Origin: Candidatus Hydrogenedens sp.
GTDB taxonomy: Bacteria > Hydrogenedentota > Hydrogenedentia > Hydrogenedentales > CAITNO01
Reading direction: 5' to 3'
NCBI GenBank assembly: GCA_012522755.1
Contig: JAAYJV010000042.1
Span: 1-38,402 of the forward strand
Length of the DNA stretch: 38,402 nt
Under the pieces are notes generated by a model, which saw only the letters and a program-made list of their open reading frames with translations, had not been told where the DNA came from and ran no database searches. Shown here in pieces: positions 10,204 through 38,402 of the stretch (position 1 is its first letter; each line of letters opens with the position of its first letter). The position numbers and the translations under genes are program-made.

Positions 10204-11178
10204 TTACAGGGCCATCTTCTGACGAATGACCGCTTCCAGGCCGGTCAGGGTATAGCTGCCTAAAATGGCTTTTTCCGCTTCATTCCACTGAAGGTCACCG
10301 CTCAGGGTCAGGTCCATTTCATTTTTCAAGTATTGCGTAACCCAGGGCAGGGCCAGACCGGATAGCAGAAACTGCAGTCCGGGTCCGCCCGTTTCATCGG
10401 CTTCAATACGCAGAATGAAGGTGGCTGTATTCGGGTCGTTCAGATCAGCAGCCAGCCTGGCCGTCTGGATGGTCTGAACCACGCCCATGGCCATCTCCGC
10501 TTCCTGGCTTTTTCGGAAAGCTTCCCAGTCCTGGCCGCCGGAGCTGACGCCTGCTGCAATGAGTGCCAGCAGATCACCATTGTTATTGTCCAGTACCAGT
10601 TCAAGATGGTGGTTGCCCTCGATAGCAGCGGGAGCTGCTTTGCTTTGTACAGGCCACAGTTCGAAAAGCTCTTCTTCCACGGCTTCAGGAATGGCGAGAG
10701 TGCCTTGCACGAAAAGGTTGCCCCGTTCCGGCAGTTCAAAACCGTCAGAAGTCCAGTTGATCTGTTTCACTTTGGCCAGAAGATTCTGTCCGTTCAACTC
10801 CTTTGCAAACAAGCGGCCCAGACGCTGTTCATTGGCGAAAACAGTCAGCTGCGCTTTATGGGTGTTCATGTCCGTCTTGATCAGAACCGCCAGTTCCCGG
10901 GGCAGCACATGGGGAAGCAGTGTTTTTATCTGATCCGCATTCAAGGGGAGGTCCAGTTTTTCAGGCAGATAATCGACCAGATAGGGAACCAGCAAGAGAG
11001 GATTGGCTATGAGTCGCAGGCGTGCGCCGGGATCACACACGGTCTGATGCTGCAACACGGGTGAAGCTGAAAGTCCCAGTTCTCCATCGAATTTATTCCA
11101 GGCGATGGCACCGCCCGCAATGATGGCGATGAGCAGCACACCCAGCACGATAAGAATAACAAGAAGTACTTTTTTCAT
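10204..11178 (-). CDS. Membrane-anchored protein of unknown function
   Basis: A 324-residue protein with an N-terminal membrane anchor or uncleaved signal (KKVLLVILIVLGVLLIAIIAGGAIAW) and no lipobox. The remainder is extracytoplasmic with alternating strands and helices; no motif lets me name a family. The middle (NADQIKTLLPHVLPRELAVL) and the end (LQWNEAEKAILGSYTLTGLE) look like a lipid- or protein-binding fold, but that is a guess. AAGGA eight bases upstream supports the ATG. An intrinsic terminator follows the gene, so it is likely its own transcription unit. The long tract upstream contains dispersed repeats rather than a recognisable partner gene. Confidence 0.7.
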   Translation of the reverse strand: MKKVLLVILIVLGVLLIAIIAGGAIAWNKFDGELGLSASPVLQHQTVCDPGARLRLIANPLLLVPYLVDYLPEKLDLPLNADQIKTLLPHVLPRELAVLIKTDMNTHKAQLTVFANEQRLGRLFAKELNGQNLLAKVKQINWTSDGFELPERGNLFVQGTLAIPEAVEEELFELWPVQSKAAPAAIEGNHHLELVLDNNNGDLLALIAAGVSSGGQDWEAFRKSQEAEMAMGVVQTIQTARLAADLNDPNTATFILRIEADETGGPGLQFLLSGLALPWVTQYLKNEMDLTLSGDLQWNEAEKAILGSYTLTGLEAVIRQKMAL

Positions 11179-11428
11179 CTGTTTTTCCTTATGCTTCCAA
11201 CTGATGCCTTTCTCCGCCGGAAGGATACAGCAGAAGCTTTTTGTCTGTTAAAACCGGAGAGCATGATCACACTTCAGTATACTGGAAGGAGAAAGAGTGA
11301 ATCCAGAAAGTGACGAGAGAAGCTCAGGGGACGGCATCAGTCATTCTTCCTCTTTTTCCTGGTGCTGATTCGGCAAGATTCAACACTGAAAAGGGTAGGT
11401 TATGCTTCTCTTGGTCTTCCCAATCTGG

Positions 11429-11500
11429 ATCCCGGTCATTTTTTGCGTTGTTGTGGCTGAACGCTTTGACCTGCGTACCGGGTCGCAAAAAAACCGGGAT
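11429..11500. repeat. Imperfect inverted repeat (MITE-like hairpin)
   Basis: The left arm at 11429-11447 (ATCCCGG, TCATTTTTT, GCG) pairs with the right arm at 11484-11500 (CGC, seven A, CCGGGAT), apart from a two-base indel. The arms enclose a 36-base loop. It could be a small non-autonomous element or a transcribed hairpin. Confidence 0.5.
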
Positions 11501-11540
11501 GACGGCGGGGGTTGTAGTAGGGGCGAGGACCGAGGGATGA

Positions 11541-11692
11541 GGGGCGTATTATAGGTGACAGGTGATTGGGGATAGGTAATAGGGCTGACGACTTTGAGTC
11601 GCGCACCTGGGAACGCCAATTTCCACATTGGCAGACAGCGTATGAGGACCGGGAAAGCATATTGATCTGATTACGGCATGACATCTCTATTT
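11541..11692 (+). repeat. Dispersed hairpin repeat, copy A
   Basis: The copy begins with GGGGCGTATTATAGG and a GGTGAT/GGGGATAG heptamer-like run, then hairpin 1 (CGACT-TTG-AGTCG) and hairpin 2 (GCCAAT-TTCCAC-ATTGGC). The 33-base core containing hairpin 2 is at 11608-11640. A tail resembling GATTACGGCATGACATC follows. It shares its order of parts with copies B and C. Confidence 0.85.
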
Positions 11693-11760
11693 TCTTAAAT
11701 GAATCCATTACCTGGAAAACTTTCCGGCAGAGGATGTGCATGTCGTGAAAGAAATAAGAT

Positions 11761-12035
11761 ACTTGAAGAGATCAGTGGTTTCTGGGAAGTCGGACGGATG
11801 TGGGAGGGGCGTATTACAGGTGATTGGGGATAGGGGATAGGTAATAGGGCTGATGACTTTGAGTCGCGCACCTGGGAACGCCAATTTCCACATTGGCAGA
11901 CAGCGTGTTATGACCCGGCGAAGTTATAAGCCTGATTGCGGCATGATATCTTGTTTTTGACCAGATACTTTTGATGCACTCAAGTCTTTACGTCGCGTCA
12001 AGGTTCTACAACAACTGACCGGCTTTGTCGCGATG
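11761..12035 (+). repeat. Dispersed hairpin repeat, copy B (longest)
   Basis: The left module runs from ACTTGAAGAGATCAG through GTCGGACGGATGTGGGAGG, then the GGGGATAG-type run, hairpin 1, and the 33-base core at 11873-11905. The right module includes GCGGCATGATATCTTG and a stretch shared with copy C (GATGCACTCAAGTCTTTACG in B; copy C starts TATGCACTC). It is the most complete example in the window. Confidence 0.85.
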
Positions 12036-12115
12036 CATGTCAATGGGGACATTGGCGACAGCGTGTTATGACATTGACATTTTGTAAACAGTGATGCGGT
12101 AACAGGTCTTTTGCC
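12036..12115 (+). repeat. Diverged repeat copy E with a different hairpin
   Basis: The flank GACAGCGTGTTATG and the tail TGTAAACAGTGATGCGG match copy D at the end of the window. The hairpin itself has changed to CAATG-GGGA-CATTG (12041-12054). The ability to fold is retained although the sequence is not. Confidence 0.6.
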
Positions 12116-12205
12116 AACCAAGAATAAAATAAAAGCCTTTGTAAACTCTGAGTCTTTGTTCTCCCGTCAAGTGCATATATAAGTCATGGCCTTTTCCCGG
12201 GTGTC

Positions 12206-12232
12206 CTGCCAATGTGGAAATTGGCGTTCCCA
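12206..12232 (-). repeat. Inverted core copy F
   Basis: On the minus strand this is 27 bases of the core (TGGGAACGCCAAT through ATTGGCAG), including both arms of hairpin 2. It lacks the rest of the repeat. After it the sequence GGTCATCTGGTTGTTGCTG resembles a motif found near 21186. Confidence 0.8.
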
Positions 12233-12463
12233 GGTGCGCTATGATTTCTGTGGTGAAAGAAAAAGGTCATCTGGTTGTTGCTGTACAGCGCTGAGCCTTT
12301 CATTGATCCCAAGGAGGTATCTTTACTGCGGGGGTTGATTTATCCATCCTTTTATGAGTATTCTTGAACAGGATCATGAAACAAATCAGCGTCTGATACC
12401 AAGCGTATTCTCTTTACAGTCACGCTTCTTTCAGGCCAGGTCTCCAACATAAAGGAACAGCAC

Positions 12464-19712: not shown

Positions 19713-20789
19713 ATGGACCACCATCTTGAAGAACTGCGTGCAAAGATCGATGCACTGGACAGCAAAATTATTGAAGCACTCAATGAACGGGCCAATGCCG
19801 CCCGGGAAATAGGCGAACTGAAAATGAGTGCTCAGGCACCCATTTACGTGCCGGAACGTGAAAAAAACGTCTTCGACAAACTTATTGCGCGCAATCAGGG
19901 CCCTCTGAACAACAAAGCGGTCATTTCCATATACAGGGAAATCATCAGCGCCATCCGTGCTCTGGAAAAACCCACCAGCGTCGCCTTTCTCGGGCCTCGC
20001 GACACCTTCAGCCATATGGCCGCATTACGTATTTTCGGACTTGCCGCCGAATACCTGCCTCTGCCTTCCTTCCTCGATGTCTTTACGGAAGTGGAACGCA
20101 AACGCATTGATTACGGAGTTGTCCCCGTGGAAAGTTCCATGGGCGGATCGGTCAGTGACACCTTGGATAAATTCATCTCCTCCAACTTGAAGATTGTCAA
20201 TGAGGTGCTGCTTCACATCACGCAAAACCTCCTGTCCAACGCACCGCTTCAGGAAATACACCGGGTCTACTCCAAGGACAACGCCATTCTCCAATGCCGC
20301 AACTGGCTCCGTGCAAACCTGCCCGGTGCGGAACTCATCGAAACAAGCAGCACAGCCGAGGCCGCACGACGTGCAGCGGTAGAACCCGGCACAGCCGCCA
20401 TTGCCAGCCGTCTCGCCGCACAGACCTATAACCTCGAACTGCTCGCCGAGAGAATCGAAGATGCGCCTCATAATTACACACGCTTCGTGGTTGTAGGCCA
20501 TCAGATGGTGAAAAGAACAGGCGACGACAAGACCTCAATCCTTGTCTGGGTCAAGGATAAACCCGGCGCTTTGTATAATATGCTCCTGCCCTTTTCACGA
20601 CGCAATATCAACCTAACCCGCATTGAGTCACGTCCTTCCCAGCAGAAAGCCTGGGAATATGTTTTCTTTATTGATTTCCTCGGTCATGTGGAAGAGGAAG
20701 TGGTTCAGGATGTCCTGACCGAGGTCGGCGATCATGCCCGGAACCTCAAAGTGCTCGGCTCTTTCCCCCGCGCTGAACTCCAGGAATAG
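19713..20789 (+). CDS. pheA: Bifunctional chorismate mutase/prephenate dehydratase
   Basis: A 358-residue P-protein converting chorismate to prephenate and then phenylpyruvate in phenylalanine synthesis. Residues 1 to about 90 are an AroQ-type chorismate mutase (LRAKIDALDSKIIEALNERA and VPEREKNVF). Residues about 90-275 are the dehydratase, starting VAFLGPRDTFSHMAA and including VPVESSMGGSVSDTLDKF and the terminal NYTRFVVVG. Residues about 285-355 are the ACT domain with LTRIESRPS, the usual phenylalanine feedback site. The preceding TTG at 19707 is rejected because AAGGA at 19701-19705 touches it, while ATG 19713 has proper spacing. Dispersed repeat copy C starts directly after its stop codon. 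Confidence 0.95.
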   Translation: MDHHLEELRAKIDALDSKIIEALNERANAAREIGELKMSAQAPIYVPEREKNVFDKLIARNQGPLNNKAVISIYREIISAIRALEKPTSVAFLGPRDTFSHMAALRIFGLAAEYLPLPSFLDVFTEVERKRIDYGVVPVESSMGGSVSDTLDKFISSNLKIVNEVLLHITQNLLSNAPLQEIHRVYSKDNAILQCRNWLRANLPGAELIETSSTAEAARRAAVEPGTAAIASRLAAQTYNLELLAERIEDAPHNYTRFVVVGHQMVKRTGDDKTSILVWVKDKPGALYNMLLPFSRRNINLTRIESRPSQQKAWEYVFFIDFLGHVEEEVVQDVLTEVGDHARNLKVLGSFPRAELQE

Positions 20790-21010
20790 GTGGTAGGTGA
20801 TAGGGGATAGGGGATAGGGCTGACGACTTTGAGTCGCGCACTTGGGAACGCCAATTTCCACATTGGCAGACAGCGCATTATGACCCGGAGAGTATGTTGA
20901 TTTGGTTGCGGCTTGATATCTTGTTTTGACCAGATGTTTTTTATGCACTCAAGTCTTTACGTCGCGCCCAAGTTCTCCAACAACTGACCGTCTTTGCCGC
21001 AAGGCATATG
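20790..21010 (+). repeat. Dispersed hairpin repeat, copy C
   Basis: It begins immediately after the pheA stop with four GGTGATAGGGGATAGG-type heptamers, then hairpin 1 and the 33-base core at 20843-20875, in which one base before the core differs from A and B. The right module (GCGGCTTGATATCTTG, CACTCAAGTCTTTACGTCGC) matches copy B to about 21000. Confidence 0.85.
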
Positions 21011-21125
21011 AGAGACTTGAAGGGATCAGGCAGCTCCGGGGAGTCGGTCGGATCGGTCGGATCGGTCGGATCGGACGGATGTGGGAGGGGCGCATTATAG
21101 GTGATAGGTGATAGGGCTGCGCGAC
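21011..21125 (+). repeat. Partial repeat: left module with expanded 9-bp array
   Basis: Sequence like the left module of copy B (ACTTGAAGGGATCAG, GTGGGAGGGGCGCATTATAGG) is present, but the hairpin core is missing. Inside it the unit GGTCGGATC is repeated three times at 21046-21072 with a variant fourth unit, where copy B has only one. Confidence 0.75.
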
Positions 21126-21288
21126 TCAAGGTCTTTAATTTATCAGTGTCCATCAGTGGTTCTAAAAGTCTCTGTGGTAAAAAAGATCATTTGGTTGCGG
21201 CTATGCCGCGCTGTGAAGCTCCGTGCCCTTCGTGACTTCGTGCTGAAAAGATAATTTGGTCACGGCTGTGCTGTGTGTCCATTGCGAT
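21126..21288. other. Intergenic tail with degenerate short repeats
   Basis: GATCATTTGGTTGCGGCTAT near 21186 and GATAATTTGGTCACGGCTGT near 21250 are two versions of one motif; a third lies near 12267. CCCTTCGTGACTTCGTG near 21228 resembles the first 60 bases of the window. No gene is visible. Confidence 0.5.
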
Positions 21289-23061: not shown

Positions 23062-23106
23062 ACAGCGTGGAGAGCGTGGAGAGCGTGGAGAGCGTGGACA
23101 GCGTGG
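23062..23106. repeat. 9-bp tandem array AGAGCGTGG x5
   Basis: Five consecutive 9-base units: ACAGCGTGG, three of AGAGCGTGG, then ACAGCGTGG. The array lies in the 213-base gap between the symporter and the TonB-like gene and abuts a palindrome. Confidence 0.9.
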
Positions 23107-23124
23107 GCACGGCATGCCGTGCCC
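23105..23124. repeat. 20-bp perfect palindrome
   Basis: GGGCACGGCA is followed directly by its exact reverse complement, giving a two-fold symmetric 20-base site. CCTAC follows. It could be an operator, a recombination site or a dispersed repeat; it sits downstream of the TonB-like gene, which argues against an operator for that gene. Confidence 0.9.
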
Positions 23125-23178
23125 CTACCTGAACCACGTCTCACTGTATTTGCTCGCTCCTCACTCCTCGCGCCTCAT

Positions 23179-38249: not shown

Positions 38250-38310
38250 GTGTGTCAAAGCTGCGGGGCCGGGAAATGCCTTGGGGCTGTCTGAAAGACC
38301 TTGAGATTCA

Positions 38311-38402
38311 CTCCTGGGAACGCCAATTTCCACATTGGCAGACAGCGTGTTATGGCGGCGATATTTTATAAACAGTGATCCGGCAACAAGCCTTTTTCTG
38401 AC
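38311..38402 (+). repeat. Dispersed hairpin repeat, copy D (runs to window edge)
   Basis: The 33-base core is at 38315-38347 and is identical to copies A and B. The left modules and hairpin 1 are absent. The tail (TTATAAACAGTGATCCGGC) matches diverged copy E rather than A to C, so there are at least two tail types. Confidence 0.85.

Follow-up and report, generated by a model that had tools for sequence, protein, structure and literature searches.

Most of what is known of REP elements comes from Proteobacteria and from GTAG-tagged families. BIMEs and REPINs, together with RAYTs, are the nearest known systems to the repeats described here: their palindromic cores lie in inverted pairs or clusters, in more than 100 intergenic copies, and they too are mosaics of cores and inter-core segments with an association to RAYTs, which for our repeats is found in relatives (Nunvar et al. 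2010, PMC2817692; Bertels and Rainey 2011, PMC3116915). The RAYTs of those relatives also resemble the REPtrons of TnpA-REP subclass 2.4, which are patchily distributed over many phyla and for which in-frame insertion of REPs, between the HUH and Tyr motifs, has been reported (Quentin et al. 2018, PMC6006769). A further likeness is to TIRtrons or TIRYTs, RAYT relatives with non-GTAG flanking inverted repeats, some of them multiplied, including examples from Acidobacteria (Di Nocera et al. 2013, PMC3733652); that work allows for the loss of a RAYT from a REP-bearing genome. Single-strand cleavage with strand transfer at CT has been demonstrated for TnpA-REP of E. coli and S. maltophilia (PMC8266576).

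We analyzed a 38,402-nucleotide stretch of Candidatus Hydrogenedens sp. (the window) in the context of its own genome, G000, an assembly of 4,006,924 bases (4.0 Mb) in 199 contigs that is 95% complete. A recurring 33-base core had been predicted at 11608, 11873, 20843 and 38315. The copies are real, and each begins one base further along: the 33-mer is exact at 11609, 11874 and 38316 and has one mismatch, in its last base, at 20844, against a chance expectation of 0. The idea of a repeat family depended on further copies elsewhere in the genome, and the family proves larger than first reported. A 24-base form of the core, GGGAACGCCAATTTCCACATTGGC, has 353 copies with up to 3 mismatches in all 4,006,924 bases, where the reversed-pattern control has 0; the count is a lower bound, as the assembly often breaks at cores. 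Among sampled contig ends, 31 of 78 have a core no more than 200 bases away, compared with 1.75% of random windows, an excess somewhat inflated because the sampled contigs were picked for carrying cores. Cores at contig ends thus help explain the break-up of G000 into 199 contigs; the window's own contig terminates within a mosaic copy.

Repeat DNA in the window spans about 11382-12240, 20783-21234 and 38275-38400, more than was originally marked out. The first mosaic is preceded, upstream of the range first described, by an outer repeat module (11382-11519) whose orientation is opposite to that of U4's far part and which has at least 4 other matches in the sampled genome. On the forward strand there follow outer module U3 (11533-11608), consisting of a GGTGATA/GGGGATA heptamer run and the hairpin CGACT-TTG-AGTCG at 11589-11601; core 1 (11609-11632), with the hairpin GCCAAT-TTCCAC-ATTGGC at 11615-11632; a D1-U5 module (11633-11746); a D5-like stretch with a heptamer run and a U3 hairpin, TGACT-TTG-AGTCG at 11854-11866 (together 11747-11873); core 2 (11874-11897), within an exact 33-mer match; and an inner module of D1-D4 type (11898-12038). 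The mosaic is completed by a degenerate core hairpin with 3 mismatches on the reverse strand (12039-12056), an inner D3-D2 module (12057-12207), which is the usual filling of a 176-bp inverted unit, and core 3, inverted on the reverse strand (12208-12231). An inverted copy had been noticed at 12206 and holds up as a 28-base form starting there, with its hairpin at 12208-12225; the degenerate inverted copy at 12039-12056 had been overlooked. At 11746 the next core is absent and the end of U5 is fused straight to the D5-like stretch, the hairpin missing, as if a core had been excised. Core-less joints of this kind were also seen elsewhere in the G000 sample.

The second mosaic (20783-21234) begins right at the stop of pheA (20789), as the original prediction had it, and contains U3, a core at 20844-20867, D1, a D5-like stretch, heptamers and a reversed U2 from 21118. 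The CGACT-TTG-AGTCG hairpin had been reported before three cores in the window; it is exact at 11589 and 20824, and the copy at 11854 starts with TGACT and so has a G-U pair at its foot. The third mosaic, on the forward strand (38275-38402), consists of U1, a core at 38316-38339 and D3, truncated by the contig end, with repeat DNA matched over 38275-38400. Two short core-free stretches of the window, 76-149 and 23103-23144, each have at least 4 other matches in the sampled genome.

Statistics on modules, spacing and context rest on 943 kb of G000, made up of the window and 60 other stretches. Classing the modules of 164 core copies by alignment scores gave at least 6 types 5' of the core (U1-U6) and at least 7 types 3' of it (D1-D7), in many combinations. 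U1 is found with D1 (31 copies), D3 (18), D2 (2) and also D4, D5 and D7; U2 with D2 (20), D6 (2) and also D1, D3 and D5; and U4 with D2 (7), D1 (3) and D4 (2). The pairings are non-random, yet few are exclusive, and the combinations bear out the proposal that modules are gained and lost independently. Module conservation reaches 50 to 150 bases outward from the core. Only the core hairpin is general, and the earlier description of two conserved hairpins was an overstatement: the second belongs to U3, one of six outer types, which with its heptamer runs occurs in 20 of the 164 copies. Cores may be single, directly paired (most often 138 bases apart) or in inverted pairs, whose spacing is mostly 158-199 bases with 176 as the commonest value. 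Outer module U2 (for example in stretch L285 near 16558, and reversed at 21118-21234 of the window) carries CCACAGATGAACACTGATTAACACTGATAAAT, and some inner modules terminate in its reverse complement, a hint of another repeat family at the ends.

Of 164 copies, 163 have GGGAAC or GGGAGC at the foot of the core. These sequences define two core variants, GGGAAC with TTCCAC, mostly beside U1-U4, and GGGAGC with GTCCCC, mostly beside U5-U6; a few cores have exchanged halves between the two. The dinucleotide preceding the core is CT before GGGAAC in 123 of the 164 copies and GT before GGGAGC in 27, counts that are not independent events because the dinucleotide belongs to the adjoining module. A tandem array of a related hairpin, GGGAGCGCCAACGTCCCTGTTGGC, was also observed in G000 (contig C33 near 31065; stretch L304, about 11000-11160), in which a stem pair is compensated, with AAC/GTT for AAT/ATT.

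As predicted, the repeats lie outside genes: this holds for 168 of 169 cores in the sampled DNA, of which a simple hexamer gene finder marks 82% as coding. Gaps with a core have a median length of 880 bases, compared with 116 for all gaps, and they lie between divergent (23), tandem (21) and convergent (12) genes, with no preference for gene ends. Of the intergenic DNA in this core-rich sample, 28% has matches in 3 or more other gaps; since the core density of the sample is about twice that of the genome, the genome-wide repeat share must be below 28%.

The same regions were compared with 1.2 Mb of DNA from a genome of the same genus, G001. Thirteen core clusters, in 12 intervals, could be aligned on both flanks; in G001 all 12 are core-free and shorter. 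The pheA interval measures 553 bp in G000 and 83 bp, without a core, in G001, where a terminator-like hairpin directly follows the gene. Because cores are absent from all 12 syntenic intervals, the G000 copies are, on the evidence of these alignments, lineage-specific; loss in G001 could in principle give the same pattern. G001 has its own sister core, GGGAACGCCAATCTCCGCATTGGC, in 27 copies, nearly all preceded by CT and accompanied by recurring modules of its own, which match those of G000 at no more than a single 23-base stretch. The genus thus shares the core, but not the modules.

The original prediction had called for a search for a RAYT flanked by the same hairpins, and such genes were found in relatives and in other phyla. 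There the hairpin has the form GGGARCGCCAATCTCCNGATTGGC, occurs in inverted pairs and lies beside, or in frame inside, the genes of one RAYT family. The core motif is present in at least Acidobacteria, Planctomycetes, Verrucomicrobia, Lentisphaerae, BRC1/Sumerlaeota, Latescibacterota, Armatimonadota, Calditrichaeota and one deltaproteobacterium. Outside G000 we found nine RAYT loci of this family, their cores lying within the ORF or on its upstream or downstream side; as the loci were reached via the core search, they do not sample the association blindly. Their hosts are Acidobacteria, Planctomycetes, BRC1, Latescibacterota, Victivallales, a deltaproteobacterium and, from the Hydrogenedentota, G002. 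The nine proteins are 54-63% identical to the first, and both HUH histidines and the tyrosine are invariant. In G002 and other genomes of the family the core reads GGGAACGCCAATCTCC[CT]GATTGGC and is arranged as in REPINs, with hairpin starts about 33 to 93 bases apart. Four loci (L226:7960-9025 on G002 contig C10, L219:3886-5239, L205:2-845 and L107:1-439) have in-frame REP hairpins within the RAYT gene, between the HUH and Tyr motifs. In the G002 gene a single frame of 355 codons encloses nine cores, translated as NANLPIG and AN(R/Q)EIGVP.

Base pairing of the hairpin is conserved across these genomes. All 18 stem types found outside G000 keep at least 3 of the 4 variable pairs, and 8 keep all four, where 1.2 would be expected. 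In addition, a related RAYT (59% identical) in genome G006 is adjoined by a core with the compensated stem GCCAGGC/GCCTGGC. From the inverted pairing, the RAYT association elsewhere and the stem covariation we conclude that the core, judged by its sequence, is a REP-type hairpin in an E. coli BIME-like arrangement, without the GTAG tag. This agrees with the original suggestion of a REP-like, non-autonomous element, which the copy number and the core-free sites in G001 also favor.

Comparison with the described systems shows both fit and departure. In a broad sense of REP and BIME, the palindrome is compensated, occurs in high-copy extragenic pairs and clusters, and flanks a RAYT in some genomes; a cognate RAYT in the same genome was not found in the G000 assembly, 95% complete and broken at cores. 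The core does not have the 5' GT[AG]G foot of the GTAG REP superfamily and is not a member of it. Unlike in BIMEs and REPINs, the core of the G000 elements is flanked on either side by 50-150 bp modules, which recur and reassort over hundreds of sites. REPs of subclass 2.4 are reported to have a GT[AG]G foot (PMC6006769), whereas the foot here is GGGARC. By motif comparison, the core-linked RAYTs have NHVH, NHIH, NHFH or NHLH, WH and YI[HR]xNP, against the subclass 2.4 signature NH[IFV]H, WQ and YIxNNP; the conserved W is thus followed by Q in subclass 2.4 and mostly by H here. TIRYT repeats share GGGGWSAS, and the core, which has no GGGG, falls outside that group; the core-linked repeats, moreover, are hairpins and also occur inside the gene. 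A search for the sequence strings in the main texts of a set of open-access papers gave one irrelevant 12-base match.

The original prediction noted no mobilizing enzyme in the window, which is right, and in the assembled genome, too, no cognate RAYT was found. No member of the core-linked family (A1) was found in the G000 or G001 assemblies by single-protein or profile A1 searches, nor did the G000 assembly contain a REPtron carrying the core. A Y1_Tnp gene at G000:C8:69085 was rejected as the mobilizer: it is degenerate, having lost, as read from its sequence, the first HUH histidine and the Tyr motif, scores 33 bits against NF047646 (cut-off 80) and has no adjoining core; its counterpart in G001 is similarly degenerate. 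An autonomous element between two cores was also sought, and the 0.7-5 kb intervals of neighboring cores contain ordinary genes and no transposase. The exact core was absent from viral contigs, the mosaic had no match in plasmids, and no exact G000 core was present in contigs of other species among the matches listed.

The only intact RAYT-like gene found in G000 (C167:8932-9555; stretch L336) is of another class and matches NF047646 at E=1e-20 with 74.1 bits, where the cut-off is 80. It could be thought to mobilize the cores, the more so as a decayed core lies just upstream. Its downstream flank, however, has an inverted pair of a different hairpin, GGAGTGCGGAAGC/GGAGTGCGCAAGC, and homologues in several relatives are flanked by this other family, GGAGTGCGGAAGC or GGAGTGCGGCAGC, none of them with an adjoining core. 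Since the class has its own flanking hairpin, the upstream core is probably a chance neighbor; we rejected the gene as a candidate and consider mobilization by it very improbable. Slightly more doubtful still is the suggestion, made in the original prediction, that the elements encode RNA, whether as small structured RNAs or as stabilizers or terminators of mRNA. Every element does contain a stable hairpin, and REPs are capable of such side effects, but at the gathering score of Rfam 15 only two tRNAs matched in the window and the repeats did not, covariation in three module sets is confined to the core hairpin, and the occupied gaps are of all three orientations. Least probable in our judgment are MITEs of a DDE-type insertion sequence, with the core inside a terminal inverted repeat. 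Many copies are indeed 176-bp units with a core inverted at both ends; the core, however, is not terminal, conserved modules continuing 50-150 bp beyond it, direct and single copies are common, and it is the ordinary genes mentioned above, not a transposase, that lie between neighboring cores.

The main rival, for the module-shuffling step, is homologous recombination among identical cores. On this account, which we think unlikely, no enzyme would act at the hairpin, and the mosaics would stem from homologous recombination, slippage and template switching, all between the identical cores of scattered REP hairpins. An assembly with no cognate RAYT is in keeping with it, identical 24-base cores could serve as recombination seeds, and the 138-bp direct units and variable heptamer runs resemble slippage; the core-less joints and the few exchanged core halves also speak for it. 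Recombination alone, on the other hand, cannot place cores in 12 of 12 tested gaps that are core-free in G001, and the joints sit at the hairpin foot, after CT or GT.

The repeats probably form a REP/BIME mosaic that is non-autonomous and owes its spread to a RAYT that has since been lost, is unassembled or acts from elsewhere. The arrangement is of the BIME/REPIN kind, and the mechanism is probably so too. This explanation builds on what was directly observed, namely a base-paired, covarying hairpin, lineage-specific intergenic copies, modules that reassort across the core, and a link to a RAYT family elsewhere; cleavage of the single-stranded core by a RAYT in the G000 lineage is what we infer from them. 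The core would belong to one horizontally spread family of RAYTs, which are HUH/Y1 single-strand nucleases. In the G000 lineage its copies would have increased in number as non-autonomous elements, and it would now link the parts of BIME-like mosaics, whose long flanking modules are recombined at the hairpin. The RAYT may cut the single-stranded hairpin at its foot, after the CT or GT preceding the core, and rejoining of strands after the cut could yield both spread of the core and exchange of modules. In favor of this is the near-constant CT before the core, in G001 as well, CT being where the TnpA-REP enzymes studied so far cleave (PMC8266576). The enzyme may have been lost, may be encoded in DNA missing from the assembly, or may have acted from another replicon. 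Counting against this explanation are the failure to find a cognate RAYT in the G000 and G001 assemblies, a guide tag of GGGARC, not GT[AG]G, and the length of the modules, which far exceed usual BIME parts. Going further, and much more tentatively, the hairpin might be a universal single-strand joint: any core could be cut by a nuclease supplied in trans, and any module linked there to any other. Much of the intergenic DNA would then be put together and reshuffled by the genome from gene-less cassettes, of which every species of the genus would have its own stock.

One hairpin and one RAYT family thus co-occur in several other phyla, with REPs within the transposase frame, and in one lineage, which has no recognizable cognate enzyme, that hairpin is the basis of large lineage-specific mosaics. 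Such a system allows two questions to be tested in nature: whether the shuffling of intergenic modules is the work of RAYTs, and what happens to a population of REPs once their enzyme has disappeared.
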